DNA from: Xiphias gladius | Lineage: Eukaryota; Chordata; Actinopteri; Istiophoriformes; Xiphiidae | Reading direction: 5' to 3' | Length of the DNA: 64,000 nt | NCBI RefSeq assembly: GCF_016859285.1 | Contig: NC_053416.1 | Span: forward strand, 894,501 to 958,500 | Shown here: positions 1-42,375 of the stretch, in pieces | Layout: each line of letters opens with the position of its first letter | How positions within the stretch are numbered: position 1 is the stretch's first letter | Notes under the pieces: generated by a model | What the model saw: the letters and a program-made list of their open reading frames with translations, nothing else | The model's database searches: none | What the model was told of the DNA's origin: nothing | Made by a program: the position numbers and the translations under genes

Positions 1-690
1 GACCCCCTATTTCACCGCCACACACTCTTTCATGATGGAGTCTTTTGACAGGCAGTTTCCATGCGAAAGGTACTTAGGACAGGTACACATAATGTGTGTG
101 GCAGAGGGAGTGAGATAGGAGGGAACTACAGTATTTTTAGTGGGTGCGTTGGAAAGGGAACAACGCCCAGGAAACAAGTAAAACTAGGAAATAGGTACTG
201 CCAAGCACAGATAAACAAGCCACACAGACTCGTTCACATAAGGGGCAGAGACATGATTCAAATGAAAGCATTTTTATTGAATTACTTAAATAAAGAAACT
301 GGGAGATATGGCTGAAAAAAACAAACATCAGTAGGTGGTTGGAAATGAACAGAGTGAATGCCAGATAAAGCTATAAAAGGGACACATCAGTGCCATACCG
401 ATGCTCATGGTCTTGTCCATTGTGGGTTGGGAATGCCCATTTCTACATGCATATCAGTCCTCTTCACTGCCAAGTCTACATTGGCCAGGTGAGGGTGTAG
501 CTACCTCCCTGACAGACAATGTCCCCAGGGGCTTCTTTTCACCTGCCATCTAGTTTCACAAGGAGGGTGCAATGTGTGGGTGATATAACACTATTCCCAC
601 TAGTTTCATCACCGTCTGTGCAAGTGCACCAGCACCAAACAGTAGGAGTAGCTAGTGAGTAGTGTTGCTGTTGATGTTAACACAGTAACT
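1..690. other. Intergenic, no gene seen
   Basis: Only short open frames without recognisable similarity or codon structure are present. I see no exon, RNA gene or clear repeat in this stretch. Confidence 0.6.
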
Positions 691-975
691 CTCTGTGTTA
701 AATGGTAAGTGACCTCCACCTATATAGTGCTTTTCTAGTCTTATCGACCAATCAAATCGCTTTGCACTACTGCCACATTCACCCATTCGCACACACATTC
801 ATACATCGCATTCACACACTCACAAAAATTAAGGGCACAGCCATCAGGGCCATTTGGGGTTCGGTATCTTGCTCAAGGGCACTTTGACATGTGGACTGGA
901 GGAGCCGTGGATTCAACCACCAACCTTCCGGTTAGAGGACGACCACTGTGTCACCTGAGCCACAGGCGCCCCACG
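690..975 (-). repeat. tRNA-derived SINE
   Basis: Read on the minus strand from about 975, the copy starts with a tRNA-like head: an A-box-like segment around a TGGCTCAGG core and a B-box-like GGTTGAATCC. A body of the kind common in fish genomes follows (a 'cttgagcaaga' core and a CA-rich stretch). A second, shorter copy of the same head lies at 26,143-26,325. Family membership is by recall of fish SINE consensus structure, not by search. Confidence 0.7.
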
Positions 976-2520
976 TGTTAGATATTGTGTTGTTTGTCAA
1001 CTGAGAACAAAGAGGCCCACTATCATCAAGACATTTGCTTTGGTCATCGGTGAGTTTGTAGGCGATTTAAGAGACCTATTATGGTATAGAAGGGTCTGTC
1101 CCTTAATGAGGGAATGTGGGACCTGAAATCATGGATTCTCAGAAAATTTCAGCAGTTCTCAATTTCTTAGTTGCTTTTCTCATCTTTTCTCTTCTTTTAT
1201 CCCGCAACTTTTGAAAGATGACTCAATGTTTTTCTTCGGCTAGCTTGCCATGGAAAAGCTCTTTTGGACAAGATATGTTGAAGTCGTAGGTCCCCTCTGA
1301 CCTATGATTTCTTATGCAAGGAATGGATACTGAGCATGCAAGCATGGGTGAGGTACCTTAGTATCAAGGAATCTTATCTTGTCATTTGATCCACATGAGC
1401 TTGCAGTGACAAGTTGAATTAACATGATTCAGCTGTCTGTCTTCCTGCTGTAGTACAAAACTTGCATGCAGATTTCTAATAAGCTCACAATACGATGCAT
1501 TACATTTTATAGATGTAAAAATGATTGTTTTGCGACTCTTTGTCTGTCAGTGATGGTGCAAAATGACGATGGTTGGTGTCTGAAATCTCAATTTACTGCT
1601 CACTATTGAGTGTCTATCATATGGAAGTAATGAATGAGTGAACAAAGGGATGAATTCAACCATATTGCTTTATTTTCATATTCCTATGAATGTTCGCAGG
1701 CTAATGTTAGCATTTTAACATTGTCACATTTCACATTTTAGCATGCTATCATTTACTGAGGCTAATTACTTGTTGACTAAAAGGACTACCTAAAGGATAA
1801 TTATGATTTCTAACTGCTTAGGGCTTATATTTGTAGTTTTGCTCATCATTCTTATTGTCACGGCACAGGTAGTACTGGCAAAATTATTTGTTGTTATGTC
1901 CAGGGGATTTAATTACGACTAAGACTTACGGCTATACAATCTACCAGCAGGCAACAACATACACTAAATGCACATTGTCCATCCCGGTTCAGAAAAGTTG
2001 CTAACTATTAGTAACATGCAACTGTTCTCTCTTTTCCCTCTACTCTCAGTCTGTTATCTGCCATCGACCAGCTCATTTTAGATAAGACCTGCCCTCCTGA
2101 GGTTCGGCAACCAATCAAAATGACAAATGAAAGCCTCTGACAATCTCAATTACTGAATTTAAAAAAAAAAAACTAGACTAAATTGCATCAGGGACATCCT
2201 TCAGAGACGACCTAGTTTATACACTTCTTGGCCATTTTGTTGGGTATACCTATACTACCTCTTGTAATCCAGTAAACAGCTCTGCCACATCACTAACTTC
2301 TGGCGCTACAGCACCTCAATGATTTGCGACACAGCAGCTCCCTCTCCCTTTTCCTACTTTTGGCTCTTTTTAGCACTGATACATTGGATTGTAGTCTGTC
2401 GTATTTATTCTCTGAATAGGACTAACAGTTATAGGTAGTTTACCTTTTGGCTGGACTGTAACAGCGGGGAAAGCAAAAACGCTAATGTCCATGACCGACT
2501 GATTGAGTGACTGAGTGACA
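976..2520. other. Intergenic, old repeat traces
   Basis: No gene is recognised. About 1,660-1,830 resembles a common fish interspersed repeat (a run with 'gctaatgttagc'). About 2,240-2,290 carries a degraded end of the family that ends TTATTAGGTACACCT, which also occurs near 12,320, 24,690, 33,260, 36,820 and 40,410. A 12-base A run sits near 2,161. Confidence 0.5.
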
Positions 2521-2564
2521 GAATGCTGAGGTTACATCATTGGTTGGCCAGCCAAATGTTGGAG

Positions 2565-3165
2565 TTTCCACTTTGTCTGTTGCTCTTTCAAAATGAATTG
2601 GCGCAAACAGTGTCGCATTTACAGGCAGTGGCGCCATTTTACTGCCTTTGTCACTAATTTACCAGCTTTTTACACCCTTTAGCGACGTTTCCTCAAAAAG
2701 ACACCTAGCAACTGATCTAGAGACTTTATGGACAAACCTTAGCTACTTTCTGTAGAAGAGAGTCGCCAGTATTGTGAGAGTGAGGTCGGACTTTCTGACT
2801 TTTCGTGGGGTGATCATTTTAAAGCTCAATATAGCTGAAATCACAGCACATCTGTTATCTTTAACTTATGTGTATGTTGATTTTGTCAATTTTTTTTTTT
2901 TTTTTTTGTCAGGTTATAAAACCAGGATTTCAGCAGCAGAGCAGCAGCTTGTAAATGATTTGGAAGTGACTGCTGGTTAACATGTCGTCTCAATGGGCTA
3001 CGTTTCAGTCACTGTTTCATCCTTGTTCCGTCGTCTGACAACAGAAACAGAAAAACATGTAAATGAGAACGGCTTCATTGGGAATTCAGCTGCATTAAAT
3101 TACTGTATATGTGAGCACAAAAAGAGTAGGACAGAAGCGAAAAGAGAAGACGTTGTCCACACATT
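2565..3165 (+). repeat. Dispersed ~0.6-kb repeat, copy 1 of 3
   Basis: This copy is the reverse complement of segments at about 11,620-12,285 and 48,780-49,480. All three share a GACGACGGAACAAG core (here as its complement), a 'ggcagtgttgcc'-type end and a GCGACTTT-rich inner part. The GTTGCCAAC-like ends suggest a non-autonomous DNA transposon, but no coding sequence is present and the class is uncertain. This is the most diverged of the three, and it carries a long T run near 2,890. Confidence 0.7.
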
Positions 3166-3464
3166 ATAATGAGTGGTTTATACCAATTGTGATTAAAAAC
3201 AAGGCCACTTCTTTCTGTACATGTTTAGATTTTCTTGTGTTAAAAATATCCCTCTTAATTTTCCCTATACACATTTTTTAGGTTTTAAACCTCAAATACC
3301 TTGAATGATAATTCAGGGGTCACAGTTACATTCATGGTGTCCTGTGGCTCTGAAATTTTACCTGCTTACAAAAAAAACCCAAAAACATTTAGCTAATATT
3401 ATATATATATCCTGTAGGTCATAAGTAGCATGCAGCAAACCCAGATTTTGTTAAAAATGTTTAT
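3166..3464. other. 3' flank of the first receptor gene
   Basis: AT-rich sequence downstream of the minus-strand receptor. No other feature is seen. A short TA run lies near 3,400-3,408. Confidence 0.5.
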
Positions 3465-4460
3465 CTATGAAGTGATAATTATTCTTATTTTTGTCTTCGC
3501 TGGGATGAGTGAGAGAAAAGGCGAACATCTCCGCTGACAGCAGAGATGATTTAATAGGACGGGTCTGATGTTCTGGTCTCGGATGCCATAGATTAGAGCA
3601 CTCAAACATCTTGGGAGGATGATAATACACATATAAAGGACCGTTTGGATGCGTACAATTATTATCCTTTCGAGGACCTTTGAGATAGCTATGAGCAATG
3701 GAGTGTGCACAGTTGAGGAGAGACTGAGGCCCAGCTGCACCAGATGCAGCAGCAGTGTGTTACGAGCCTTACGGGCTGAAGCTCTGTTTGTAGAGGCTGA
3801 TCTGGCTGCTACCATCACACCCATATACGAGCAAGTGATCGCCACACCAGCTGAAACAAACAGAAAACAGGTGAAGGCTTTGTCATAAAGATCAGACATT
3901 GGATCAAGCAACATGCTTTCTTTGCCACAAAAGTCTTTCATCTGCAGGCTCTGCAGGTCTTCAAACGGAAAATTTAACAGTAAAATAGCTTGAATGAGGA
4001 CATTTAGTGAACTGACGGCCCAAACCACAACGATAGCCACCCCTGTGTTTCTGATGGTCATGATGGTAGCGTGCCTCAGCGGGTAACACACAGCTACGTA
4101 TCTCTCCAGAGACATCACCACCAGTGTGAGAGGAGAGATCACAGTTGTGAGATTGGCAAAAAGGGCAAGAACACCACACACAGGATACGTCATCCTTATT
4201 CTACTAGCAGCCAGTAGGTACAATACCTGACTTTGTGCCAGCAGTACAGTGTCTGCAAACAGCAGGTTAAACAGAAAAACATAACGGGAGGTCTCACGAA
4301 ATACCGGTTTACTCCTCAAGGTGAATAACATGGTCCCATTAATCAGGAGGAACACACAGCATGGCACCGTAGACACAGTGGAAAAGAACACTAATCCCAG
4401 TAAACCCTGATACTGCTGTTCAGCAGTGATGTTGGTCAGAGACTGATTTGCACATGACAT
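3465..4460 (-). CDS. Odorant receptor, 131-2-like (OR-1)
   Basis: Intronless seven-helix receptor of 331 residues, predicted to act at the cilia of olfactory neurons through a G protein; the ligand is unknown. N-glycosylation sites sit at N5 and N10. Helix 1 spans about 22-48, helix 2 about 58-84, and helix 3 ends in the ERY motif at 119-121, followed by VAVCYPLRH. The helix 3 and loop 2 cysteines are C95 and C178. Helix 7 (about 270-292) reads into LIYGIRDQNIRP instead of the usual NPxxY. The frame stays open 21 codons further upstream, but I chose the methionine at 4,460 because it gives the same length and N-terminus (MSxxNxS) as the 10,168-11,163 paralog and lies about 255 bp from the shared promoter module. 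The N-terminal half is nearly identical to part of the receptor at 38,220. Family call is by recognition of the fish OR131-2-like pattern. Confidence 0.93.
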   Translation of the reverse strand: MSCANQSLTNITAEQQYQGLLGLVFFSTVSTVPCCVFLLINGTMLFTLRSKPVFRETSRYVFLFNLLFADTVLLAQSQVLYLLAASRIRMTYPVCGVLALFANLTTVISPLTLVVMSLERYVAVCYPLRHATIMTIRNTGVAIVVVWAVSSLNVLIQAILLLNFPFEDLQSLQMKDFCGKESMLLDPMSDLYDKAFTCFLFVSAGVAITCSYMGVMVAARSASTNRASARKARNTLLLHLVQLGLSLSSTVHTPLLIAISKVLERIIIVRIQTVLYMCIIILPRCLSALIYGIRDQNIRPVLLNHLCCQRRCSPFLSLIPAKTKIRIIITS

Positions 4461-4619
4461 TTTAGAGAAGCATTTAATCAACAAAAATATTAACCTCTTG
4501 ATGTAAAGGGAGCACAAAAGCACAGTTAATCCTCAATTTCTGTTCTGGTAACAGTGAAGATCCATTATCTCTGGAGTAGAGATGCCTGGTGAGTTCACAA
4601 GCAAAACCAGGAATTATCT

Positions 4620-8429: not shown

Positions 8430-9605
8430 CTGGATAAATGGGGGTGTTCTTAAAGTATTTTCACACGGACACAATTTTCGTAAATTTGCCTCTGTACGCC
8501 ACCACAAGGAATTTGAAACGAAACTATCAAGATGTGATTGAAGTGTAGACTTTCAGCTTTAATTCAAGGGGTTTAACAAAAATATGGCATCAACCGTTTA
8601 GGAATTACAGCTATTTTTATAGATAGTCCCCCATTTTCAGAGGCTCCAAAGTAATCGGACAAACCAACATCATTATAAATGTAAGGATTATTTTTAGTGC
8701 TTAGATGACAATCTTTTGCAGTCAATGACTATCTGAAGTCTGGAAACCATGGACGACACTACATGTTGGGTATCCTCTCTTGAGATGCTTCGCCAGGCCT
8801 TCACTGCAGCTGCCCTCAGTTGCTGCTTGTTTGTGGGTCTTTCTGCCCTCAGTTTTGTCTTCAGTAAGTGAAAAGTATGTTCAGCTTGGTTGAGGTCAGG
8901 TGACTGACTTGGCCATTGAAGAATATTCCATCTCTCTGCCTTGAGAAGCTCCTGGGTTGGTTTCGCAGCATGTTTTGGGTCATTATCCATCTGTACTGTG
9001 AAGCACTGCCCTGTCAGTTCTGCAGCATTTGGCTGAATCTGAGCAGATATTTTAGAACAATACACGTTAGAATTCATCCTGCTACTTCTATCAGCAGTTA
9101 TATCATCAATAAACATCAGCGACCCGGTTCCATTGGCAGCCATACATGCCCAGACCATAACGCTGCCTCCACCGTGTCTGAAAGATGATGTGGTGGCTTT
9201 GGATCATGAGCCGTTCTTTTCCTTCTCCACGCTCTTCTCTTCCCATCATTCTGGTGCAAGTTCATCTGGGTTTCATCTGTCCAAAGAATCTGGTCCCAGA
9301 ACTGGGCAGGTTTTTTTAGGGGTTTTCTGGCAAAGTCTAATCTGGTTTTCTGTCCTTGTGTTTTACCAGTCGTTTGCACCTTGTGGTATATCCTCTGTAT
9401 TTACATTCATGAAGGCGTTTCTTGACGATGATATGCCTGCCTCCTTGAGAGTGTTCTTGACCTGGCTAAACCCCTTGAATTAAAGCTGAAAGTTTACGTT
9501 TCAATCACATCATGGTTGCTTCATGTCAAGTCCATCGTGGTGGTATACAGAGGCAAAATTATGAAAGGTGTGTCTCTGTCCAAACACTTACGGACCTAAA
9601 TGTAT
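8430..9605 (-). mobile_element. Tc1-like transposon (copy C), best preserved
   Basis: Long inverted terminal repeats: the segment around 8,531-8,575 (GATGTGATTGAAG ... CTTTAATTCAAGGGG) is mirrored at about 9,467-9,511, and similarity continues outward to about 8,430 and 9,605. The minus strand encodes a Tc1 transposase in two overlapping frames (9,379-9,116, then 9,158-8,694). The catalytic triad is visible: ILWTDET, then MDNDPKH, then WPSQSPDLN with the following E. A frameshift in the 9,116-9,158 overlap breaks the frame, and the N-terminal DNA-binding part is absent, which matches the short length of about 1.18 kb. It could not move on its own. Confidence 0.88.
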
Positions 9606-10167: not shown

Positions 10168-11163
10168 TTAAGAAGTGGTAAATATGCTGATTTTAGCCCT
10201 GGCTGTGACAACTGAACGCAAAGGTGAACATTTCCAATGACAGCAGAGATGATATACTAGGATGGGTCTGATGTTCTGGTCTCGGATGCCATAGATTAGA
10301 GCACTCAGACATCTTGGGAGGATGATAATACACATATAAAGGACCGTTTGGATGCGTACAATTATTATCCTGTCGAGGACCTTTGAGATAGCTATGAGCA
10401 ATGGATTGTGCACAGTTGAGGAGAGACTGAGGCCCAGCTGCACCAGATGCAGCAGCAGTGTGTTAAGAGCTTTACGGGCTGAAGCGCTGTTCGTAGAGGC
10501 TGATCTGGCTGCTACCATCACACCAATATACGAGCAAGTGATTGCCACACCAGCTGAAACAAACAGAAAACCAGTAAAGGCTTTGTCATAAAGATCAGAC
10601 ATTGGGCCAAGCAACATGCTGTCTTTGTCACAAAAGTCTTTCATCTGCAGGCTCTGCAGGTCTTCAAACGGAAAATTTAACAGTAAAATAGCTTGAATGA
10701 GGACATTTAGTGAACTGACGGCCCAAACCAAAACGATAGCCACCCCTGTGTTTCTGATGGTCATGATGGTAGCGTGCCTCAGCGGGTAACACACAGCTAC
10801 ATATCTCTCCAGAGACATCACCACCAGTGTGAGAGGAGAGATCACAGTTGTGAGACTGGCAAAAAGGGCAAAAACCCCACACACAGGATACGTCATCCTT
10901 ATTCTACAAACAGCCAGTAGGTACAGTAACTGGCTATGTGCCAGCAGTACAGTGTCTGCAAACAGTAGGTTAAACAGAAAAACATAACGGGAGGTCTCAC
11001 GAAACACCGGTTTACTCCTCAAGGTGAATAACAGGGTCACATTAATGAAGAGAAACACACAGCATGGCACCGTAGACACAGTGGAAAAGAACAATAATCC
11101 CAGTAACCCCTGATACTGCTGTTCTGCAGTGACGTTGGTCTGAGACTCATTTGTGTTGGACAT
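10168..11163 (-). CDS. Odorant receptor, 131-2-like (OR-2)
   Basis: Intronless receptor of 331 residues, same length as OR-1 and colinear with it. N-glycosylation sites are N5 and N10. The ERY motif at 119-121, VAVCYPLRH, cysteines in YPVCG and the loop-2 KDFCDK, and LIYGIRDQNIRP after helix 7 are all present. It differs from OR-1 mainly at the N-terminus, in helix 1-2 (LLFINVTLLF) and at the C-terminal tail, while helices 3-7 are almost the same, although the flanks are mostly different. That pattern suggests coding-region exchange or constraint. It lies in the same orientation as OR-1 with Tc1 elements between, and looks intact. Confidence 0.93.
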   Translation of the reverse strand: MSNTNESQTNVTAEQQYQGLLGLLFFSTVSTVPCCVFLFINVTLLFTLRSKPVFRETSRYVFLFNLLFADTVLLAHSQLLYLLAVCRIRMTYPVCGVFALFASLTTVISPLTLVVMSLERYVAVCYPLRHATIMTIRNTGVAIVLVWAVSSLNVLIQAILLLNFPFEDLQSLQMKDFCDKDSMLLGPMSDLYDKAFTGFLFVSAGVAITCSYIGVMVAARSASTNSASARKALNTLLLHLVQLGLSLSSTVHNPLLIAISKVLDRIIIVRIQTVLYMCIIILPRCLSALIYGIRDQNIRPILVYHLCCHWKCSPLRSVVTARAKISIFTTS

Positions 11164-27160: not shown

Positions 27161-27304
27161 GTGCTTTTTTCCTGTGTAGAAAAAAGAAAATTTATGTTAG
27201 AGTTAAGGAATACAGACTGGACAGGATTCCTTCTGGTTTTGTGCTCCAATTACATTAACAAGACATTTTGGATGTCTTAAGTGTTGCTTTAAAATTTTGA
27301 TATG

Positions 27305-27395
27305 CAAATCAATCTCAGGCGAACATCACTGCTGGACCTAAGTATCAGGGGTTACTAGGATTAGTGTTGTTTACATTCTGTCTACAGTGCCATTT
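27305..27395 (+). pseudogene. Odorant receptor 5' fragment
   Basis: The only receptor sequence left reads as QANITAGPKYQGLLGLVLF and a few further codons, matching the N-terminus and first helix of the OR 131-2-like family. Similarity stops abruptly after 'ctacagtgccat'. The rest is deleted, and unrelated, partly LINE-derived sequence follows. Confidence 0.75.
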
Positions 27396-30383: not shown

Positions 30384-31343
30384 ATGTTTTATTCAAATGA
30401 GTCCCAGACCAACATCAACGCAGAACAGCAGTATCCAGGGTTACTGGAAAGAGTGTTCTTTTCCACTGTGTCTACGGTGCCATGCTGTGTGTTTCTCTTC
30501 ATTAATGGGACCATGTTATTCACATTGAGGAGTAAACGGGTGTTTTGTGAGACCTCCCGTTACGTTCTTCTGTATAACCTACTGTTTGCAGACACTGTAC
30601 AAATGACACAGACTCAGTTACTGTACCTACTGGCTGCTTGTAGAATAAGGATGACGTATCCTGTGTGTGGTGTTTTTGCCCTTTTTGCCAGTCTCACAAC
30701 TGTGATCTCTCCTCTCACACTGGTGGTGATGTCTCTGGAGAGATACGTAGCTGTGTGTTACCCGCTGAGGCACGCTACCATCATGACCATCAGAAACACA
30801 GGGGTGGCTATCGTTGTAGTTTGGGCCTTCAGTTTACTAAATGTCCTCACTCGAGTTTTCTTGCTTTTAGAATATCCATTTGAAGACCTGGAGAGCCTGC
30901 AGATGACAGACATTTGCTCTGTCATGGCTATGTTGATTAGGCCCTCATCCGATCATTACGACAAAGCCTTTACTGGTTTTCTGTTTGTTTCCTCTAGTTT
31001 GTCGATCATTTCCTCCTATACTGGTGTGATGGTAGCAGCCAGATCAGCCTCTACAGACAAAGCTTCAGCTCGTAAGGCTCTTAACACACTGCTGCTGCAT
31101 CTGGTGCAGCTGGGCCTCAGTCTCACCGCAACCATTTACAACCCAATCCTTAAAGTTCTCTTGAAAATTCTAAAAAGGATCATATTTGTGCGTGTCCACA
31201 TTGTGTTTTATGTATGTATTTTCATCTTCTCCAGATGTCTGAGTTCTCTCATCTATGGGCTCAGAGATCAGACCATCAGACCCGTCCTTTTGTACCATCT
31301 ATGCTGCCGACTGAAACTCTCAGTCCTAAAAACCACAAATTAA
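30384..31343 (+). CDS. Odorant receptor, 131-2-like (OR-4)
   Basis: Intronless receptor of 319 residues: N-glycosylation site at N5, LFTLRSKRVFCETSRY between helices 1 and 2, C95 in YPVCG, SLERYVAVCYPLRHAT, loop-2 TDICSV, LNTLLLHLVQLGL in helix 6, and LIYGLRDQTIRPVLLYHLCC after helix 7. From helix 3 to helix 6 it is nearly the same as OR-5 at the DNA level (three differences in about 410 bp), but its flanks, N-terminus and helix 6-7 loop differ, which points to exchange between copies. A private change makes LIRPSS where OR-5 and OR-6 have LIGPSS. The promoter module before it lacks the TATA-like part, so the gene may be weakly expressed although the reading frame is intact. Confidence 0.92.
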   Translation: MFYSNESQTNINAEQQYPGLLERVFFSTVSTVPCCVFLFINGTMLFTLRSKRVFCETSRYVLLYNLLFADTVQMTQTQLLYLLAACRIRMTYPVCGVFALFASLTTVISPLTLVVMSLERYVAVCYPLRHATIMTIRNTGVAIVVVWAFSLLNVLTRVFLLLEYPFEDLESLQMTDICSVMAMLIRPSSDHYDKAFTGFLFVSSSLSIISSYTGVMVAARSASTDKASARKALNTLLLHLVQLGLSLTATIYNPILKVLLKILKRIIFVRVHIVFYVCIFIFSRCLSSLIYGLRDQTIRPVLLYHLCCRLKLSVLKTTN

Positions 31344-31980
31344 TAAAACTATAAGAAGGGCTGATTTGAAGCTACACAAAATCATAAGAAATTTCAAAAT
31401 AAGATTGCAAAGAAATGTAGGACTTTTGAAAGATTATCAAGTATGTTTTGGAAACTAATATTACAAAATTAATACATCAAGGTAATACATAAGAAAAGCT
31501 GGCAATTTGAGAGTAAAAACACACAATGAGAGGAGGAAGAAGAAGCAAATAGTCCCCTGAGTAATTCAAAAACAAAAAGAAATGAGGCACTAAGTATGTA
31601 AAAGTATCTTTGAGGTCGACAAAACACAATGCCTACATTGGCTTGGTTTAGCAGTTCTCCAAAATATTCCCCTAGTGTCTATGGTGTCGTGGTACTATGT
31701 GCAATTATGAACTATCTTATGCTTTGTTATGGACAATCCATGACTAACACAACAGTCCAGTAATGAAGCACCACATGGGTCCTGATCTGGTGGGCCCGTC
31801 TTCCCAGTCACATCCACCAGTTTTCAACATATATGAGAATAACAGTTTCAGTAACCAGATGTTAGCATGCCAAGGCCTCTTACCGGCTCCACAACCCAGC
31901 TGCCAGCACATTAGACCCTACACCCCTCCTTGAGGGTGGTGAGGATGGACGGGTTGACAGAACACAGGACTTTGACAGGA
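31344..31980. other. 3' flank of OR-4 and spacer
   Basis: No gene recognised. AT-rich flank, then non-repetitive sequence up to the receptor fragment at 31,981. Confidence 0.45.
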
Positions 31981-32138
31981 GACTAAATGTCCTCACTCGA
32001 GTTTTTTTCATCATCTTCCCCAGAAGTCTGAGTTCTCGCATCTATGGGCTCAGAGATCAGACCATCAGACCCGTCCTCTTGTACCATATGTGCTGCCGAC
32101 TGAAACTCTCAGTCGTCCCAGCCAAGGCTGAGGAGTGA
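31981..32138 (+). pseudogene. Internally deleted odorant receptor (3' end)
   Basis: The sequence CTAAATGTCCTCACTCGAG (middle of the receptor, near helix 4) is joined directly to CATCATCTTCCCCAG (helix 7), followed by the normal end through the stop codon and shared 3' flank. The first half of the gene is missing altogether. Its final codons match OR-6 (YHMCC) and not OR-5 (YHLCC). It is the receptor of the first, decayed unit of the tandem duplication. Confidence 0.85.
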
Positions 32139-32759
32139 AGCTTTGTCAAGTTTTTGCGGTGGCCTCCATGAGTCAACATATCTGACTTCAGCAATTGTTT
32201 GAAATTCATTGAAAGAATAAATATTATAATTGTGACAACCAAGAACAAGATGCCAATTTCATTAAATTGCTTTCATTCCACTTCATCCTGAAATGTTGGC
32301 AGCATTTCAGTTGTAACTTCTAACATCTATCGTTGTGGGGCAAATGCAGTTGGGTGGGGCACTTTATTGGATAGCTAACAGTAGAGAGAGATGATAGAAC
32401 TGAAGAGTAAGACTCAGAGAAAGAGGTGGAACAAAGGGTCCTGGACGGATGCAAACTGATGAAGTTGTGGTTCATGGTAAGTGTCTTAACACCTAGGCCA
32501 TCAGGGCACTGGTGATAAGAGCCTGGTGAACACAGGCAGCCCCCTTCACTGGTACATCAGCAGAACCAACCTTTATCTAACCTCACCTAGTGTCCTGACC
32601 TCCCCACACATTAGTCTGTGCTGGTTTGTGTCACATATATTATTTTATTCTTTTTTGTTCTGCTGTGTAACTGCCAGTTAATTATTCTCATTGTCATAGT
32701 AACAGAGACTGCATCCACAATCAGCCCGTATTTGCTACCAAGTTACCTAAGTTACTGTT

Positions 32760-33270
32760 TAAAGGAATGGTTCAACATTTTCGGAAATAGGCTTCTTTGA
32801 CTTCTTTCCAAGAATGAGATGAAAGGATTGATATCGATCAAATGTGTGTCCACTGTATTGCCTTAGCTTGGAGATGGGGTCAGGACCTGGTTAACCGAGC
32901 TTAGCATAAAGAATGGAAGCAGAGGGAAAAAACAGCTAGCCTTACTCTGTTGAAAGTGGACAAATACACCTACCAACACCTCTAAAGCTGGGTGAACACT
33001 AGGACTACAAAACTGAGGATTATTTTCATGATGAATTAATTTTCCGATTATTTTCTCAATTAATCAGTGTGTCTTGAAAAATTTCCGAAAATAGTGGAAA
33101 ATGTTATAAATTCCTAGAGCCTAAGTGTCTTCAAACATCATGTTTTGTCTGACCAAAAACCCAAAGGTTCTCACATCTGAGAAGCTGCAAGCGTAAAATG
33201 TTTGGCATTTTTGCTTAAGAAAACAACCCTTAATTACCAGTCTACCTTCTGTAACCACTTTATTAGGTAC
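32760..33270. repeat. Repeat block within the unit spacer
   Basis: Two adjoining fish repeats: one with AAAGGAATGGTTCAACATTT and CTTAGCATAAAGAATGGAAG, the second related to the ATTAATCGA-end family with 'tgtcttcaaacatcatgttt'. A TTATTAGGTACACCT end follows. The same block recurs at about 36,325-36,835 and 39,910-40,420. Confidence 0.65.
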
Positions 33271-33339
33271 ACCTGTAAAATTTAATGTAATCCGATATTG
33301 AAAGGATGAATATATTTCACAATTTTCAATCTGGATTTT

Positions 33340-33765
33340 GAAGAAACTAAAAAACAGGAACTCTGGAAATCTTACTATCTAATTTTATTGGACTTAAGTG
33401 CAGCCTTTGATATGACTGATTATTCCATTTTAATGGACAGAGGGATGGACTGGGTTTGGCTAGGTGGAACTGCTTTAAATTGGCTTTCATCTTAAGTGTC
33501 ACACAGAGTTTTCAAAGTTGCTACCAATAACTCTCTTGTCATGCGTTTGTATGTGATACCCCTTGTCCATGTTATTTGTCACTTTAACGCTGTGTCCTAC
33601 CATTGTTAAGCTGATGACACCCAGTTCTATGTTTCATTTAGTCCTGAATATAGTAAACAATATTGCTACCATCAAAGACTGGATGGCCTCTTACTCTCCG
33701 CAACTGAATACTGATTTGACTGCAGTTCTGATAATTGGCTGTGATCACATGGAGCACTAACAACT
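33340..33765 (+). mobile_element. LINE reverse-transcriptase remnant (L2/CR1-like)
   Basis: Reads LLDLSAAFDMTDYSILMDR, then after frame changes a TQFYVSF-like box and ATIKDWMASYSPQLNTDLT, the usual order of the fingers, palm and thumb start in L2/CR1-type LINEs. The YADD box is degraded and stops are present. The copy in unit B (about 36,925-37,350) keeps 22 bp around GGGGTCCCACAAAGCTCC that are missing here. Confidence 0.7.
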
Positions 33766-34320
33766 AATTCTAAAACATTCAACAAGAATTTTAATTCTTC
33801 TTAATCAAGGCCTTACCTTCAATCAGAACATTAAAAGTGTTAAGGCTTGTTCTTTGGAAAATCAATAAAATGACAAAAATTAAACCAATGCGAGGTTTAC
33901 TTAATGTCTCACCGACACCTGAAACACCAAATCTGCACCAACCCAGCCCCCTGTGACATTTTAACTCAGGGATGTTTTCGATCTGAACACCCACTTCGTC
34001 TTGTTTGACTGTGTGCCAGCGTTATGTGTAAAAGAAACTGGTGAATGTAGCTACATCGACAGAGGCTCATCAGTTTTAATGGCCAACACAGACATCCAGG
34101 ACACACTGGGCAGTCACTACAGATAGTCCTTCAATGTGATGTAGTTTATTACTGAAGAAAACCAAAATAACAACCAATATAAATAACAACCAAATACCAC
34201 CCAAACTTGAGTGAGTTGGATATGTGCTTTTTGATTATCCACTTTGGAGGACAATATGACATGGACCAGCATGTTTGGTAATGGAAGAGAGATTACGTCA
34301 GCCCTTACTGATTTGGTAAC

Positions 34321-34470
34321 CATGTTGACACGTGATGTGTCATGTGAACAGGTTGGGAGGACAGAGCTCATAATTTGCAAACAGGGACAAGCAAACCCTG
34401 CAGACCAGCTCTGCCCACATACATACAAGGACAGACTCTAACCTGCTATCTACACAGGGAAAATGTATGT
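34321..34470 (+). promoter_or_regulatory. Shared receptor upstream module, OR-5
   Basis: CACGTGATGTGTCATGTGAA, then GAGGACAGAGCTCATAA about 15 bp on, then CCCTGCAGACCAGCTCTGCC, then CTATCTACACAGGGAAAATG. The TATA-like position is about 267 bp before the start codon. A ten-codon upstream frame (MYVDELGFFL) opens at the last ATG. Confidence 0.65.
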
Positions 34471-34632
34471 GGATGAACTTGGGTTTTTCTTATGAAGCCT
34501 CAGGCATCTGTGTTGAAGAGACGTTGGATCTAAACTGTTCTAGGAGGAAAAACTGAAGAAGATTCACTTTGATTTTTTGTTCCAGTGACATCAGCAGCCT
34601 AATATTTTACATGTCTTAAATGCTTCTCTGCA

Positions 34633-35598
34633 ATGTCGTATGCAGCTCAGTTTCACAATAACGTCACTGCTGAACAGCAGTATCAGGGTTTACTGGAAAG
34701 AGTGATTCTTTCCACTGTGTCTACGGTGCCATGCTGTGTGTTTCTTTTCATTAATGTGACCCTGTTATTCACCTTGAGGAGTAAACCGGTGTTTTGTGAG
34801 ACCTCCCGTTATGTTTTTCTGTATAACCTACTGTTTGCAGATACTGCACAGCTGGTACAAAGTCAGGTATTGTACCTACTGGCTGTTTGTAGAATAAGGA
34901 TGACGTATCCTGTGTGTGGTGTTCTTGCCCTGTTTGCCAGTCTCACAACTGTGATCTCTCCTCTCACACTGGTGGTGATGTCTCTGGAGAGATACGTAGC
35001 TGTGTGTTACCCGCTGAGGCACGCTACCATCATGACCATCAGAAACACAGGGGTGGCTATCGTTGTGGTTTGGGCCTTCAGTTTACTAAATGTCCTCACT
35101 CGAGTTTTCTTGCTTTTAGAATATCCATTTGAAGACCTGGAGAGCCTGCAGATGACAGACATTTGCTCTGTCATGGCTATGTTGATTGGGCCCTCATCCG
35201 ATCATTACGACAAAGCCTTTACTGGTTTTCTGTTTGTTTCCTCTAGTTTGTCGATCATTTCCTCCTATACTGGTGTGATGGTAGCAGCCAGATCAGCCTC
35301 TACAGACAAAGCTTCAGCTCGTAAGGCTCTTAACACACTGCTGCTGCATCTGGGGCAGCTGGGCCTCAGTCTCTCCTCAACCATTTACAACCCAATCCTT
35401 AAAGTTCTCTCGAAAATTGTAACGAGGATAGTATTTGTGCGCATCAGTAATTTTTTGTATGTGTGTACCATCATCTTCCCCAGATGTCTGAGTTCTCTCA
35501 TCTATGGGCTCAGAGATCAGACCATCAGACCCGTCCTCTTGTACCATCTGTGCTGCCGACTGAAACTCTCAGTCGTCCCAGCCAAGGCTGAGGAGTGA
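34633..35598 (+). CDS. Odorant receptor, 131-2-like (OR-5)
   Basis: Intronless receptor of 321 residues. One N-glycosylation site at N10, LFTLRSKPVFCETSRY, C95 in YPVCG, ERYVAVCYPLRH, loop-2 TDICSV, LIYGLRDQTIRPVLLYHLCC and an acidic C-terminus (PAKAEE). It carries a private V-to-G change in helix 6 (LLHLGQLGL), which may weaken that helix. It is the receptor of tandem unit A. Compared with OR-6, the flanks and the C-terminal two thirds are nearly identical, while residues about 22-103 differ strongly because OR-6 carries sequence from another locus there. The start is the only methionine that fits the family N-terminus. Confidence 0.93.
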   Translation: MSYAAQFHNNVTAEQQYQGLLERVILSTVSTVPCCVFLFINVTLLFTLRSKPVFCETSRYVFLYNLLFADTAQLVQSQVLYLLAVCRIRMTYPVCGVLALFASLTTVISPLTLVVMSLERYVAVCYPLRHATIMTIRNTGVAIVVVWAFSLLNVLTRVFLLLEYPFEDLESLQMTDICSVMAMLIGPSSDHYDKAFTGFLFVSSSLSIISSYTGVMVAARSASTDKASARKALNTLLLHLGQLGLSLSSTIYNPILKVLSKIVTRIVFVRISNFLYVCTIIFPRCLSSLIYGLRDQTIRPVLLYHLCCRLKLSVVPAKAEE

Positions 35599-36924
35599 AG
35601 CTTTGTCAAGTTTTTGCGGTGGCCTCCATGAGTCAACATATCTGACTTCAGCAATTGAGCAGGAAACAAATAGAAATTACGGCTTTATAATGTTGAGAAC
35701 AACATTGCTCATTTAATTCAACAACATATTTCAGTATTGTTTGAAATTCATTGAAAGAATAAATATTATAATTGTGACAACCAAGAACAAGATGCCAATT
35801 TCATTAAATTGCTTTCATTCCACTTCATCCTGAAATGTTGGCAGCATTTCAGTTGTAACTTCTAACATCTATTGTTGTGGGGCAAATGCAGTTGGGTGGG
35901 GCACTTTATTGGATAGCTAACAGTAGAGAGAGATGATAGAACTGAAGAGTAAGACTCAGAGAAAGAGGTGGAACAAAGGGTCCTGGACGGATGCAAACTG
36001 ATGAAGTTGTGGTTCATGGTAAGTGTCTTAACACCTAGGCCATCAGGGCACTGGTGATAAGAGCCTGGTGAACACAGGCAGCCCCCTTCACTGGTACATC
36101 AGCCTTTGACACCATTTCCCGCATCCAGAACCAACCTTTATCTAACCTCACCTAGTGTCCTGACCTCCCCACACATTAGTCTGTGCTGGTTTGTGTCACA
36201 TATATTATTTTATTCTTTTTTGTTCTGCTGTGTAAATGCCTGTTAATTATTCTCATTGTCATAGTAACAGAGACTGCATCCACAATCAGCCCGTATTTGC
36301 TACCAAGTTACCTAAGTTACTGTTTAAAGGAATGGTTCAACATTTTAGGAAATAGGCTTCTTTGACTTCTTTCCAAGAATGAGATGAAAGGATTGATATC
36401 GATCAAATGTGTGTCCACTGTATTGCCTTAGCTTGGAGATGGGGTCAGGACCTGGTTAACCGAGCTTAGCATAAAGAATGGAAGCAGAGGGAAAAACAGC
36501 TAGCCTTACTCTGTTGAAAGTGGACAAATACACCTACCAACACCTCTAAAGCTGGGTGAACACTAGGACTACAAAACTGAGGATTATTTTCATGATGAAT
36601 TAATTTTCCGATTATTTTCTCAATTAATCAGTGTGTCTTGAAAAATGTCAGAAAATAGTGGAAAATGTTATAAATTCCTAGAGCCTAAGTGTTTTCAAAC
36701 ATCATGTTTTGTCTGACCAAAAACCCAAAGGTTCTCACATCTGAGAAGCTGCAAGCATAAAATGTTTGGCATTTTTGCTTAAGAAAACAACCCTTAATTA
36801 CCAGTCTACCTTCTTTAACCACTTTATTAGGTACACCTGTAAAATTTAATGTAATCCGATATTGAAAGGATGAATATATTTCACAATTTTCAATCTGGAT
36901 TTTGAAGAAACTAAAAAACAGGAA

Positions 36925-37350
36925 CTCTGGAAATCTTACTATCTAATTTTATTGGACTTAAGTGCAGCCTTTGATATGACTGATTATTCCATTTTAATGG
37001 ACAGAGGGATGGACTGGGTTTGGCTAGGTGGAACTGCTTTAAATTGGCTTTCATCTTAAGTGTCACACAGAGTTTTCAAAGTTGCTACCAATAACTCTCT
37101 TGTCATGCGGGGTCCCACAAAGCTCCATTCGGTTTGTATGTGATACCCCTTGTCCATGTTATTTGTCACTTTAACGCTGTGTCCTACCATTGTTAAGCTG
37201 ATGACACCCAGTTCTATGTTTCATTTAGTCCTGAATATAGTAAACAATATTGCTACCATCAAAGACTGGATGGCCTCTTACTCTCCGCAACTGAATACTG
37301 ATTTGACTGCAGTTCTGATAATTGGCTGTGATCACATGGAGCACTAACAA
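36925..37350 (+). mobile_element. LINE reverse-transcriptase remnant, unit B copy
   Basis: Same remnant as at 33,340-33,765, with the GGGGTCCCACAAAGCTCC segment kept. This matches the 'GVPQGS' box position of L2/CR1-type elements. Not functional. Confidence 0.7.
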
Positions 37351-37907
37351 CTAATTCTAAAACATTCAACAAGAATTTTAATTCTTCTTAATCAAGGCCT
37401 TACCTTCAATCAGAACATTAAAAGTGTTAAGGCTTGTTCTTTGGAAAATCAATAAAATGACAAAAATTAAACCAATGCGAGGTTTACTTAATGTCTCACC
37501 GACACCTGAAACACCAAATCTGCACCAACCCAGCCCCCTGTGACATTTTAACTCAGGGATGTTTTCGATCTGAACACCCACTTCGTCTTGTTTGACTGTG
37601 TGCCAGCGTTATGTGAAAAAGAAACTGGTGAATGTAGCTACATTGACAGAGGCTCATCAGTTTTAATGGCCAACACAGACATCCAGGACACACTGGGCAG
37701 TCACTACATATAGTCCTTCAATGTGATGTAGTTTATTACTGAAGAAAACCAAAATAACAACCAATATAAATAACAACCAAATACCACCCAAACTTGAGTG
37801 AGTTGGATATGTGCTTTTTGATTATCCACTTTGGAGGACAATATGACATGGACCAGCATGTTTGGTAATGGAAGAGAGATTACGTCAGCCCTTACTGATT
37901 TGGTAAC

Positions 37908-38057
37908 CATGTTGACACGTGATGTGTCATGTGAACAGGTTGGGAGGACAGAGCTCATAATTTGCAAACAGGGACAAGCAAACCCTGCAGACCAGCTCTG
38001 CCCACATACATACAAGGACAGACTCTAACCTGCTATCTACACAGGGAAAATGTATGT
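37908..38057 (+). promoter_or_regulatory. Shared receptor upstream module, OR-6
   Basis: Same sequence as the OR-5 module, shifted by the unit length of 3,587 bp, with all parts present including the short upstream frame. Confidence 0.65.
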
Positions 38058-38219
38058 GGATGAACTTGGGTTTTTCTTATGAAGCCTCAGGCATCTGTGT
38101 TGAAGAGACGTTGGATCTAAACTGTTCTAGGAGGAAAAACTGAAGAAGATTCACTTTGATTTTTTGTTCCAGTGACATCAGCAGCCTAATATTTTACATG
38201 TCTTAAATGCTTCTCTGCA

Positions 38220-39185
38220 ATGTCGTATGCAGCTCAGTTTCACAATAACGTCACTGCTGAACAGCAGTATCAGGGTTTACTGGGATTAGTGTTCTTTTCC
38301 ACTCTGTCTACGGTGCCATGCTGTGTGTTCCTCCTGATTAATGGGACCATGTTATTCACATTGAGGAGTAAACCGGTATTTCGGGAGACCTCCCGTTATG
38401 TTTTTCTGTTTAACCTGCTGTTTGCAGACACTGTACTGCTGGCACAAAGTCAGGTATTGTACCTACTGGCTGCTAGTAGAATAAGGATGACGTATCCTGT
38501 GTGTGGTGTTCTTGCCCTGTTTGCCAATCTCACAACTGTGATCTCTCCTCTCACACTGGTGGTGATGTCTCTGGAGAGATACGTAGCTGTGTGTTACCCG
38601 CTGAGGCACGCTACCATCATGACCATCAGAAACACAGGGGTGGCTATCGTTGTAGTTTGGGCCTTCAGTTTACTAAATGTCCTCACTCGAGTTTTCTTGC
38701 TTTTAGAATATCCATTTGAAGACCTGGAGAGCCTGCAGATGACAGACATTTGCTCTGTCATGGCTATGTTGATTGGGCCCTCATCCGATCATTACGACAA
38801 AGCCTTTACTGGTTTTCTGTTTGTTTCCTCTAGTTTGTCGATCATTTCCTCCTATACTGGTGTGATGGTAGCAGCCAGATCAGCCTCTACAGACAAAGCT
38901 TCAGCTCGTAAGGCTCTTAACACACTGCTGCTGCATCTGGTGCAGCTGGGCCTCAGTCTCTCCTCAACCATTTACAACCCAATCCTTAAAGTTCTCTCGA
39001 AAATTGTAACGAGGATAGTATTTGTGCGCATCACTAATTTTTTGTATGTGTGTACCATCATCTTCCCCAGATGTCTGAGTTCTCTCATCTATGGGCTCAG
39101 AGATCAGACCATCAGACCCGTCCTCTTGTACCATATGTGCTGCCGACTGAAACTCTCAGTCGTCCCAGCCAAGGCTGAGGAGTGA
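38220..39185 (+). CDS. Odorant receptor, 131-2-like, mosaic (OR-6)
   Basis: Intronless receptor of 321 residues with N10 glycosylation site, C95, ERYVAVCYPLRH at about 119-130 and LIYGLRDQTIRPVLLYHMCC. Residues about 22-103 (helices 1-2 and the start of helix 3) are almost the same as in OR-1, including GLLGLVFFST, LLINGTMLFTLRS, LFNLLFADTVLLAQSQVLYLLAASR and ALFANLTTV, while everything on either side, including flanks, matches OR-5. At DNA level I count about four differences to OR-1 in this segment against about twenty-five to OR-5. The gene is thus a hybrid made by gene conversion, and its odour range may combine both parents, which is inference. Confidence 0.93.
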   Translation: MSYAAQFHNNVTAEQQYQGLLGLVFFSTLSTVPCCVFLLINGTMLFTLRSKPVFRETSRYVFLFNLLFADTVLLAQSQVLYLLAASRIRMTYPVCGVLALFANLTTVISPLTLVVMSLERYVAVCYPLRHATIMTIRNTGVAIVVVWAFSLLNVLTRVFLLLEYPFEDLESLQMTDICSVMAMLIGPSSDHYDKAFTGFLFVSSSLSIISSYTGVMVAARSASTDKASARKALNTLLLHLVQLGLSLSSTIYNPILKVLSKIVTRIVFVRITNFLYVCTIIFPRCLSSLIYGLRDQTIRPVLLYHMCCRLKLSVVPAKAEE

Positions 39186-40447
39186 AGCTTTGTCAAGTTT
39201 TTGCGGTGGCCTCCATGAGTCAACATATCTGACTTCAGCAATTGAGCAGGAAACAAATAGAAATTACGGCTTTATAATGTTGAGAACAACATTGCTCATT
39301 TAATTCAACAACATATTTCAGTATTGTTTGAAATTCATTGAAAGAATAAATATTATAATTGTGACAACCAAGAACAAGATGCCAATTTCATTAAATTGCT
39401 TTCATTCCACTTCATCCTGAAATGTTGGCAGCATTTCAGTTGTAACTTCTAACATCTATTGTTGTGGGGCAAATGCAGTTGGGTGGGGCACTTTATTGGA
39501 TAGCTAACAGTAGTGAGAGATGATAGAACTGAAGAGTAAGACTCAGAGAAAGAGGTGGAACAAAGGGTCCTGGACGGATGCAAACTGATGAATCTGTGGT
39601 TCATGGTAAGTGTCTTAACACCTAGGCCATCAGGGCACTGGTGATAAGAGCCTGGTGAACACAGGCAGCCCCCTTCACTGGTACATCAGCCTTTGACACC
39701 ATTTCCCGCATCCAGAACCAACCTATATCTAACCTCACCTGGTGTCCTGACCTCCCCACACATTAGTCTGTTCTGGTTTGTGTCACATATATTATTTTAT
39801 TCTTTTTTGTTCTGCTGTGTAACTGCCTGTTAATTATTCTCATTGTCGTAGTAACAGAGACTGCATCCACAATCAGCCCGTATTTGCTACCAAGTTACCT
39901 AAGTTACTGTTTAAAGGAATGGTTCAACATTTTAGGAAATAGGCTTCTTTGACTTCTTTCCAAGAATGAGATGAAAGGATTGATATCGATCAAATGTGTG
40001 TCCACTGTATTGCCTTAGCTTGGAGATGGGGTCAGGACCTGGTTAACCGAGCTTAGCATAAAGAATGGAAGCAGAGGGAAAAACAGCTAGCCTTACTCTG
40101 TTGAAAGTGGACAAATACACCTACCAACACCTCTAAAGCTGGGTGAACACTAGGACTACAAAACTGAGGATTATTTTCATGATGAATTAATTTTCCGATT
40201 ATTTTCTCAGTTAATCAGTGTGTCTTGAAAAATGTCAGAAAATAGTGGAAAATGTTATAATTTCCTAGAGCCTAAGTGTCTTCAAACATCTTGTTTTGTC
40301 TGACCAAAAACCCAAAGGCTCTCACATCTGAGAAGCTGCAAGCGTAAAATGTTTGGCTTTTTTGCTTAAGAAAACAACCCTTAATTACCAGTCTACCTTC
40401 TGTAACCACTTTATTAGGTACACCTCTAAAATTTAATGTAATCGGAT
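39186..40447 (+). repeat. Tandem duplication unit C, partial
   Basis: Repeats the spacer downstream of OR-5 and OR-6 (3' flank, repeat block) and stops matching just after the TTATTAGGTACACCT end near 40,447, in the sequence 'taatgtaatcggata'. The LINE remnant, promoter module and receptor of a full unit are missing. Confidence 0.85.
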
Positions 40448-40619
40448 ACATCTGTTCAGCCATAAATTCTCGAGCTACAGAGATAATTATGTTCATTCTT
40501 GATTGACGCTGTCAGAGAGGTATTAATTTAACTATAGATTAATTATTGAGGTTGTAGTTGGAGTGGTGTTGGACTGGACTGCATTATATTGAGACGTGTT
40601 TCAATATTAGCTCGTAAGC

Positions 40620-40840
40620 AGTGTTTTGTAAACTATGCACAACTCATTGCTTGTAGATGTCTCAAAAATTGTTACGAAGAAAGCACTATTGCTCATCCTA
40701 AATGCTTTTTATGTGTGTATTATCATGCTCCTTGTGTTTGAGTGGTCGTATCTATGGGTTCAGAGACCAGACCATCAGGCCCACCCTTGTGCACCATCTA
40801 CGCTAGTGACTGAAACTCTTAGTCGTCTCATCGAAGGACA
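40620..40840 (+). pseudogene. Odorant receptor 3' fragment
   Basis: Reads as a decayed receptor end: SLLVDVSKIVTKKALLLILNAFYVCIIML, then after a frame change IYGFRDQTIRPTLVHHL. This corresponds to the last loop, helix 7 and C-terminal start of the OR 131-2-like family. The first two thirds are missing. It is more diverged than the tandem copies, so it died earlier. Confidence 0.75.
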
Positions 40841-42375
40841 GGTTCTCGCCCTAAGACACATGGAATGAATTAACCTCTATGTCTGTTAAACTCATGCTGT
40901 CCTCAGACTGGTCATCATGTGTCGTCATATCCAGCGTTCATTAAATATTAAGAAAAAAAATGAAAACTTTTTGCTTAAAATGAAAGAGAATAACACTGTT
41001 ATAGTTTAGTCAGTATTTGTTGAAATCTGCTTCTAGAAGCCTGTCAAATTATGATTCTAAATTTAACCAACAAAAAAGTGGTAGTGACAAAGATTCGAAA
41101 AGGATTCATTGAAGTTGTCATTGTTTCACTTTGAATTTAATCCTAAACTGTGTAGTGTAGTTGCAGCTTTTCATATAAATCATTCCAGGGCAAATTTCAA
41201 GGAATATGTAGGGAGATCATACACAGCAAATGCATTGTTTTTTTCATGTTTTAAAATAAGATTAGAGCTAGGTTTGTGGTATAATACTAGAATAAAATAA
41301 AAATATATTATATGATTGACATACATAGCATTTTGTTTTGGTCCTCATATATAGTATCACATGTTTTCTGTCAGTTTAGGCCTGAGTTACACAGAATGGA
41401 TTAATAGCTGGTTTGACGTCCAGACTGCTGGTTTTGTCCCTCACTCATCTGGCGGGAGGAAACAAGGATGTCTACTGACCTCCCCATACACCAATTAATA
41501 CTGTTTTTTTGTCTCTCTGATTTCATATATTCTCCCCACTGTACAACTCTGTGAGACTTGCCTGCGAAAAATGTATGATATAAACAATGTGAAGGTCTGG
41601 TCTACTCTGGCCACTTACCAGTGATCTTGACTGTGACATCAAAAGAAATCTGGGTCCCGTGCATATGAAGCCTCAGTGGGCACTTTCCCTTTTAATTCAT
41701 CCATCTTCACAGGAACTGAATCAACAAGTAAACGCATGCAGCTGTGTTGTGTTCATATCAGATTTAAGAAAGTCTGTACAGCTCGTGATCTCAGCATATT
41801 TCAGCCTCTTTTCTTAACACACTGTAGTTTCTGTATGAAGCTTTCACTGTGAGGTTTGACAACATGAAACGTTATTTCTGTCATATTTTTTAGGTCGTTA
41901 TACCCTGAGCATAAGACAACAAGACAAAGCTGGAAACTATCTTACCTGCCCCTACACTGAGAGAGGGTCACTGTAGCACTGTATAACATATATTTAAAAT
42001 AAAACAAAATCCATGTTATAATCTATTCATTTTTATTGCATTTTTTCATTTATTTAAGCTTTTTGCCAGCACCCAAATCTCTATTACTGCTTTCCTTGGG
42101 ACTCTGCTGTCGTCCTGTGGAGGCTGCAGACGGACGTTTTCTACCTTTGACACATCTCCCCCTGCTTCTTTTCACCCGGCAACCGTGACTTTCCCTGTGT
42201 TGGAGGCTCATTGTAATGTTTTTAAGCTTGGTCTGCTGCCCCCAAGTGGCCAGAAGAAATCAGTGAATGCAGCTGTAATGTTAAAAAAGACACTATTTGA
42301 TTGGACTGCAGCCAGATTTTATTTCCACAGTAACATAACAAACTGAGGGAACTGGAACCAAACACCTCCCCCTTT
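40841..42375. other. Intergenic, no gene recognised
   Basis: AT-rich to mixed sequence. The small piece near 41,450-41,540 ('tgtctactgacctccccata', 'ttgtctctctgatttcatat') weakly echoes the unit spacer near 36,155-36,215. Nothing else was recognised. Confidence 0.45.

Follow-up and report, generated by a model that had tools for sequence, protein, structure and literature searches.

Introduction

Conversion between paralogous odorant receptor genes is treated in a review as a source of mosaic receptors (PMC1995454), and the same review cites Sharon et al. (1999) for conversion within a primate olfactory receptor cluster. Among fish chemoreceptors, gene conversion was found with GENECONV in the channel catfish OlfC genes (PMC6588630), homoeologous recombination was described for the V1r1-V1r2 cluster of an allotetraploid teleost lineage (PMC5704247), and the possibility of conversion between OR families of teleosts has been considered (PMC1325023). 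Outside receptor families, interlocus gene conversion is described for human segmental duplications (PMC3790853; PMC4467073).

Here we analyze a receptor cluster of Xiphias gladius in which one gene, OR-6, is a mosaic of two others, and we show that this mosaic structure is statistically significant. The data come from a single assembly of one individual.

The receptor cluster and its tandem arrays

The window, the whole 64,000-nucleotide stretch of DNA analyzed, is taken from a contig of 28.3 Mb (positions 894,501-958,500), part of an assembly that totals 691 Mb. Six receptor genes with intact frames lie in it: OR-1 and OR-2 are read from the minus strand, and OR-3 to OR-6 from the plus strand. 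OR-1, OR-2, OR-4, OR-5 and OR-6 exceed the Pfam cut-off for both 7tm_4 and 7tm_1, and OR-3 matches 7tm_1, with 7tm_4 not listed; with their intact frames and above-cut-off domains, these are vertebrate-type olfactory receptors of the rhodopsin-like GPCR class and candidate members of the teleost OR-131-type subfamily. The genes and the array that matter here are:

38220..39185, plus strand: OR-6, odorant receptor gene and probable recipient, 321 aa in a single open frame (Pfam 7tm_1 8.9e-20, 7tm_4 2.5e-11)
34633..35598, plus strand: OR-5, tandem twin of OR-6, apparently unconverted
3465..4460, minus strand: OR-1, best-fitting donor gene, 331 aa counted from the ATG, one of the units of a ~5.2-kb tandem array extending left beyond the window
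10168..11163, minus strand: OR-2, related copy with a poorer donor fit (17/192 differences)
30384..31343, plus strand: OR-4, related copy with a poorer donor fit (24/192 differences)
32010..40448, plus strand: direct tandem array with a unit length of ~3.55-3.59 kb (receptor 3' remnant and spacer, OR-5 and spacer, OR-6 and partial spacer)

The OR-1 and OR-6 loci lie 34 kb apart in inverted orientation, and the arms of an inverted repeat, I1, fall at 3928-4477 and 38203-38752. Three further receptor copies are found left of the window, at contig positions 892,752-893,738 (ORu1), 887,553-888,515 (ORu2) and near 883,200-884,173 (ORu3); ORu2, ORu1 and OR-1 are units of the second, 5.2-kb tandem array (98.2% over 6,203 aligned positions).

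Fragments also occur in the cluster. The first unit of the OR-5/OR-6 array has kept no more of its receptor than the 3' end, which lies within a remnant at 31920-32135 (130 bp, 98% to the OR-6 3' end), and another receptor 3' remnant is found beyond the last unit, at 40632-40842. A short match to residues 3-27 of three receptors at 27301-27375 (60-71% identity) is possibly a decayed 5' end, and an open frame with a DDE_3 transposase domain (1e-10) between OR-1 and OR-2 (8694-9158, minus strand) is a probable transposon remnant.

A patch of differences between tandem twins

The tandem units that carry OR-5 and OR-6 differ at 45 sites over 3,585 aligned bases, and 26 of these sites sit within the 244 bp from 38,284 to 38,527. 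When the differences were shuffled 20,000 times, the fullest 244-bp window held 14, against the 26 observed. Within this stretch OR-6 differs from OR-1 at four positions (38,304, 38,360, 38,384 and 38,519) and from OR-5 at 26, which agrees with an initial annotation that had counted, by eye, about four and about 25. The accompanying statement that this stretch alone departs from OR-5 is nearly correct, except that 19 differences (0.57%) are spread over the other 3,341 aligned bases, four of them in coding sequence (38,654, 38,941, 39,034 and 39,135).

OR-5 sequence resumes on either side of the patch, as had been claimed. No OR-5/OR-6 substitution is present from 37,710 to 38,283, and the 220 bp upstream of the start codon are identical in the two genes; over the corresponding upstream sequence OR-1 and OR-6 are ~30% different (70/215 or 62/213, by alignment). 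The following intervals can be distinguished:

38251..38283, plus strand: left-breakpoint interval, 33 bp
38284..38475, plus strand: minimal tract predicted to be converted, with the OR-1 base at 22/22 sites where OR-1 and OR-5 differ (3/192 differences to OR-1, 25/192 to OR-5)
38476..38527, plus strand: doubtful right end, with 38,519 OR-5-like and 38,527 OR-1-like (S103N, position 3.33; model posterior 0.76-0.88 for 38,527 coming from OR-1)
38528..38663, plus strand: 136 bp without any OR-1/OR-5 difference, a possible site of the right breakpoint and perhaps a pairing anchor
4205..4396, minus strand: putative OR-1 donor segment corresponding to 38,284-38,475, beginning at 4,153 if 38,527 is included (coordinates by subtraction)

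The initial annotation had placed the edges near 38,283 and 38,527. The left one is well defined: the last OR-5-like informative site (38,250) is followed by the first OR-1-like site at 38,284. On the right the edge is softer than had been stated: uninterrupted OR-1-like sites end at 38,475, and past 38,527 the next OR-1/OR-5 difference is 38,664. With no OR-1/OR-5 difference in 38,528-38,663 and conflicting states at 38,519 and 38,527, the right breakpoint is confined only to 38,476-38,663, up to 188 bp. A two-source copying model run under six settings gave posteriors of copying from OR-1 of 0.76-0.88 at 38,527 and 0.37-0.75 at 38,519; if 38,527 was copied from OR-1, the tract could end anywhere up to 38,663. 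From these sites the tract length is put between a minimum of 192 bp (38,284-38,475) and a maximum of about 413 bp (38,251-38,663).

Significance of the mosaic

In a 3SEQ-type test of OR-6 as a mosaic of an OR-5 background and an OR-1 donor, the statistic was 22 and the permutation maximum 6 (0/5,000). This five-gene run used 5,000 permutations over 60 ordered trios, of which 17 stood at 0/5,000. Among eight genes (OR-1, OR-2, OR-4, OR-5, OR-6, ORu1, ORu2 and ORu3) no other of the 336 ordered trios deviated as far as OR-6/OR-5/OR-1 (0/2,000 permutations); 90 of the 336 stood at 0/2,000, and the trios are not independent. When the five window genes were put through a GENECONV-type run test, an OR-1/OR-6 run emerged at 38,399-38,511 (global 0/5,000), together with OR-4/OR-6 and OR-4/OR-5 runs farther 3' (0 and 1/5,000). 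All of these permutation results come from a family with many exchanges, in which events are not treated as independent.

Trees give the same partition. Inside the tract OR-1 and OR-6 pair with support 97 (38,284-38,475) or 100 (extended to 38,527), and outside it OR-5 and OR-6 pair with support 100 (38,000-38,283) and 93 (38,664-39,155). The initial annotation had predicted significant breakpoints and OR-1 as the nearest relative inside the stretch only; both predictions are borne out by the 3SEQ-type and GENECONV-type tests and by these trees. OR-6 combines a donor-like stretch, recipient-like flanks on both sides and significant breakpoints, the features by which ectopic (interlocus) gene conversion is recognized.

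Donor and direction of transfer

Donor candidates were sought by whole-genome DNA searches in which only the best candidates were scored, so the counts are lower bounds: at least nine and at least ten matches were obtained, and all matches listed lie on the contig of the window. Over the 192 positions of 38,284-38,475, OR-6 shows 3 differences to OR-1, 11 each to ORu1 and ORu2, 17 to OR-2, 24 to OR-4, 25 to OR-5 and 42 to ORu3. None of the eight full-length close copies fits OR-6 better than OR-1, and OR-1 ranks first as donor among all copies recovered from the genome (3/192, next 11/192). At tract sites where OR-1 differs from either of its tandem sisters, OR-6 sides with OR-1 at eight and with a sister at none; ORu1 and ORu2 were rejected as donors on this ground and on their 11/192 differences. 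Among the eight genes, the OR-1/OR-2 states at 38,284-38,287 are joined to the OR-1-array states at 38,330-38,378 only in OR-1 and OR-6.

The direction of transfer can be read from five sites (38,330, 38,334, 38,336, 38,378 and 38,475) at which OR-1, ORu1 and ORu2 share states that are absent in OR-2, OR-4, OR-5 and ORu3; in the distant OR-3 only the base at 38,330 agrees, the other four states being absent. In our reading these states arose within the OR-1 array and passed from it to OR-6, and on such site patterns, from one assembly, the role of OR-6 as the recipient appears well supported. OR-1 agrees with its tandem sisters at the five sites, as a donor left unchanged by a non-reciprocal transfer would; against strict non-reciprocity, four sites at 38,447-38,457 are common to OR-1, OR-5 and OR-6 and absent in the sisters. 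The reverse transfer, from OR-6 to OR-1, was rejected because both sisters carry OR-1's states at the five tract sites, and by itself it would leave OR-5 and OR-6 alike.

Silent codons (38,328, 38,376 and 38,415) were transferred along with 15 replaced residues. GC-biased conversion was also considered and set aside, as there is no clear bias among the 26 changes (12 to G/C vs 7 to A/T).

Consequences for the receptor protein

The OR-5 and OR-6 proteins differ at 19 residues, and 16 of these fall within residues 22-103, which span TM1, loop 1, TM2 and residue 3.33; 15 of the 16 match the OR-1 residue, the exception being V29L. With helix numbering taken from the sequence anchors C3.25 (residue 95) and R3.50 (residue 120), the changed positions are 1.31-1.64, 2.44-2.66 and 3.33. 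OR-6 is best described, from its sequence, as an OR-1-like TM1-loop 1-TM2 segment placed on the upstream region, N-terminus and TM4-TM7 of an OR-5-like gene, and its residue 3.33 is probably OR-1-derived too. The proposal that helices 1 and 2 had been moved holds for TM1, loop 1 and TM2, to which one TM3 residue should probably be added.

Residue 103 (3.33, S103N), whose membership in the tract is the least certain among the changed sites, aligns with the TM3 histidine of the consensus OR51. We take 3.33 to be a ligand-pocket position, with the TM3 histidine presumably contacting ligand in OR51E2. The ligand or odour response of OR-6 may be altered by these changes. OR-5 as a near-identical twin, OR-1 as donor and OR-6 as chimaera constitute a compact natural experiment, and the OR-5/OR-6 pair, only 19 residues apart, would allow direct measurement of the roles of TM1-TM2 and residue 3.33 in the odorant response.

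Exchange across the cluster

Patterns of divergence along the cluster indicate that the OR-6 conversion is not isolated; it is one of several exchanges, an unusually clean case of an ordinary kind. The upstream regions of the five window genes are 33-43% different pairwise in one alignment and 29-40% in another (OR-5/OR-6 excepted, which are identical), and the 3' coding part is 23% different across strands, ~5% within a strand and 0.6% for OR-5/OR-6. Between these regions, at 38,528-38,663, the ten pairs of window genes differ at 0-3 of 136 bases, a figure that rises to at most 4 when ORu1 and ORu2 are added, with ORu3 standing apart at 8-11. Silent divergence across strands falls in the same steps, from ~0.5 in the 3' part through 0.09-0.18 over the tract region (where OR-1/OR-6 stand at 0.05) to 0-0.06 in the middle, and for the six cross-strand pairs the dip in the middle is significant (Fisher P 1.2e-6 to 2.6e-4). 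Given this stepwise silent divergence, whole-gene trees, orthology calls and dN/dS values obtained in the cluster mix histories.

Purifying selection as the sole cause of the flat middle block was rejected, since silent divergence to OR-3 shows no dip there: the values are 1.0-1.1 for the middle against 1.0-1.3 for the 3' part, and the two of five pairs that were tested gave Fisher P values of 0.56 and 1.0. The OR-3 tract region is more diverged (2.0-3.2, with one pair beyond correction), so partial silent constraint may act on the middle block. The simplest reading of these data would be repeated conversion of coding sequence between the two arrays, with upstream regions kept apart.

The TM3-TM4 block (38528-38663 and its counterparts in OR-1, OR-2, OR-4 and OR-5) is near-identical even at silent sites, and OR-3 does not share this identity; family-wide homogenisation of the block is probable on this pattern. 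We also entertain, tentatively and with more doubt than conviction, the idea that this near-invariant block serves as a recombination anchor, such that receptors on opposite strands repeatedly exchange their N-terminal half (TM1-TM3) and each retains its upstream region and C-terminal half. If true, the anchor reading would amount to germ-line module swapping, in which new receptors are made without moving their regulation.

Other edges are visible among these genes. Four states at 38447-38457 in OR-6 (4223-4233 in OR-1) are common to OR-1, OR-5 and OR-6 and absent in ORu1/ORu2 and OR-2, which probably reflects a separate, shorter transfer between the arrays in either direction. In 60-bp windows OR-4 is near-identical to OR-5/OR-6 from ~38,530 to 38,940 and abruptly divergent at ~38,980-39,070, a further mosaic edge. 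As far as the site corresponding to 38,287, the 5' end of OR-1 departs from its tandem sisters (array at contig positions 887,601-899,006; window 1-4506), and OR-1 itself looks chimaeric.

Proposed event and alternative explanations

Ectopic conversion of OR-6 by OR-1, the event named in the initial annotation, has withstood both the whole-genome donor search and the check on direction, and it is very probably the correct as well as the simplest account of the mosaic. The event would have followed, or roughly coincided with, the tandem duplication that produced OR-5 and OR-6. A break in or near OR-6 may have been repaired from the inverted OR-1 locus 34 kb away, with the partners perhaps pairing through the 136-bp OR-1/OR-5-identical block that adjoins the tract. 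Repair by a non-crossover route would then have replaced OR-6 sequence with an OR-1 segment of at least 192 and at most about 413 bp, leaving an intact chimaeric receptor.

Divergence within the tract (3/192 between OR-1 and OR-6) is not significantly different from that of the tandem units (19/3,341; P 0.11), and the three differences are a slight excess over the 1.1 expected from unit divergence (P ~0.10). These values suggest that the conversion is about the same age as the tandem duplication or younger. Evidence that runs counter to a simple tract includes 38,519, which is OR-5-like within the wider tract. The OR-6 bases at 38,304 (shared with ORu3), 38,360 and 38,654 (both shared with OR-4) occur in another copy, so later mutation is not the sole reading of the OR-6/OR-1 differences.

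The same three differences in 192 bp bear on whether the true donor was another allele of OR-1, which would overlap with an origin at the OR-1 locus, or a near-copy since lost or unassembled. Such a donor is unlikely: the scored candidates were only the best ones, which makes the search counts lower bounds, but the searches returned at least nine and at least ten genome matches, those listed all being on the window's contig, and no full-length close copy among the eight beats OR-1. It is considerably less probable that OR-5 is the changed copy, with an OR-1-like ancestor of both twins and a later overwriting of OR-5 by another gene. Age permits it, as tract divergence is not below unit divergence and conversion could have preceded the duplication, and OR-5 tested on an OR-6 background is itself significant at 0/5,000 with OR-2 (38,304-38,417) or OR-4 (38,284-38,437) as donor; these signals are nonetheless weaker (statistic 10 each, vs 22 for OR-6/OR-1), two events would be required, and among the copies found there is no close donor for the whole stretch, the nearest to OR-5 being OR-2 at 18/192.

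Near-identical tandem units are error-prone in assembly and only one assembly was used, so OR-1 reads or sequence might have been misplaced in OR-6. We judge this highly improbable, since three OR-6 bases in 38,284-38,475 are not found in OR-1, the OR-6 frame remains open and the window lies within a 28.3-Mb contig. The concentration of 16 of the 19 amino-acid differences in residues 22-103 could also suggest convergent selection on TM1-TM2 of OR-1 and OR-6, but this is inconsistent with silent sites that match OR-1 as well, with the OR-1 base at all 22 OR-1/OR-5-differing sites of 38,284-38,475, and with the return of OR-5 sequence on both sides, and we give it almost no credence.

Comparison with known systems

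None of the titles and abstract openings listed in the literature searches reports, for fish OR genes in inverted orientation, a conversion tract resolved in this way. The human segmental duplications (PMC3790853; PMC4467073) resemble this locus in the short, unidirectional transfer between paralogues and differ in organism and sequence class. In the V1r1-V1r2 cluster duplicated fish chemoreceptor genes likewise recombine, but the partners are homoeologous clusters of a polyploid and the receptor family is another one (PMC5704247). The catfish OlfC report also concerns fish chemoreceptor paralogues, the same class of test and concerted evolution, although it surveys a subfamily of a different receptor family rather than resolving one tract (PMC6588630).

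In the primate OR cluster, according to the review, conversion between paralogues produces mosaics, as in OR-6, and conversion of whole coding regions homogenises the genes (PMC1995454). The present locus differs from that description in that the partners are inverted and come from two tandem arrays, and in that a single tract can be assigned a donor, an unconverted twin and a direction. Conversion as a maker of mosaic receptors is thus already known, and the resolved OR-6 tract is a new instance of it.
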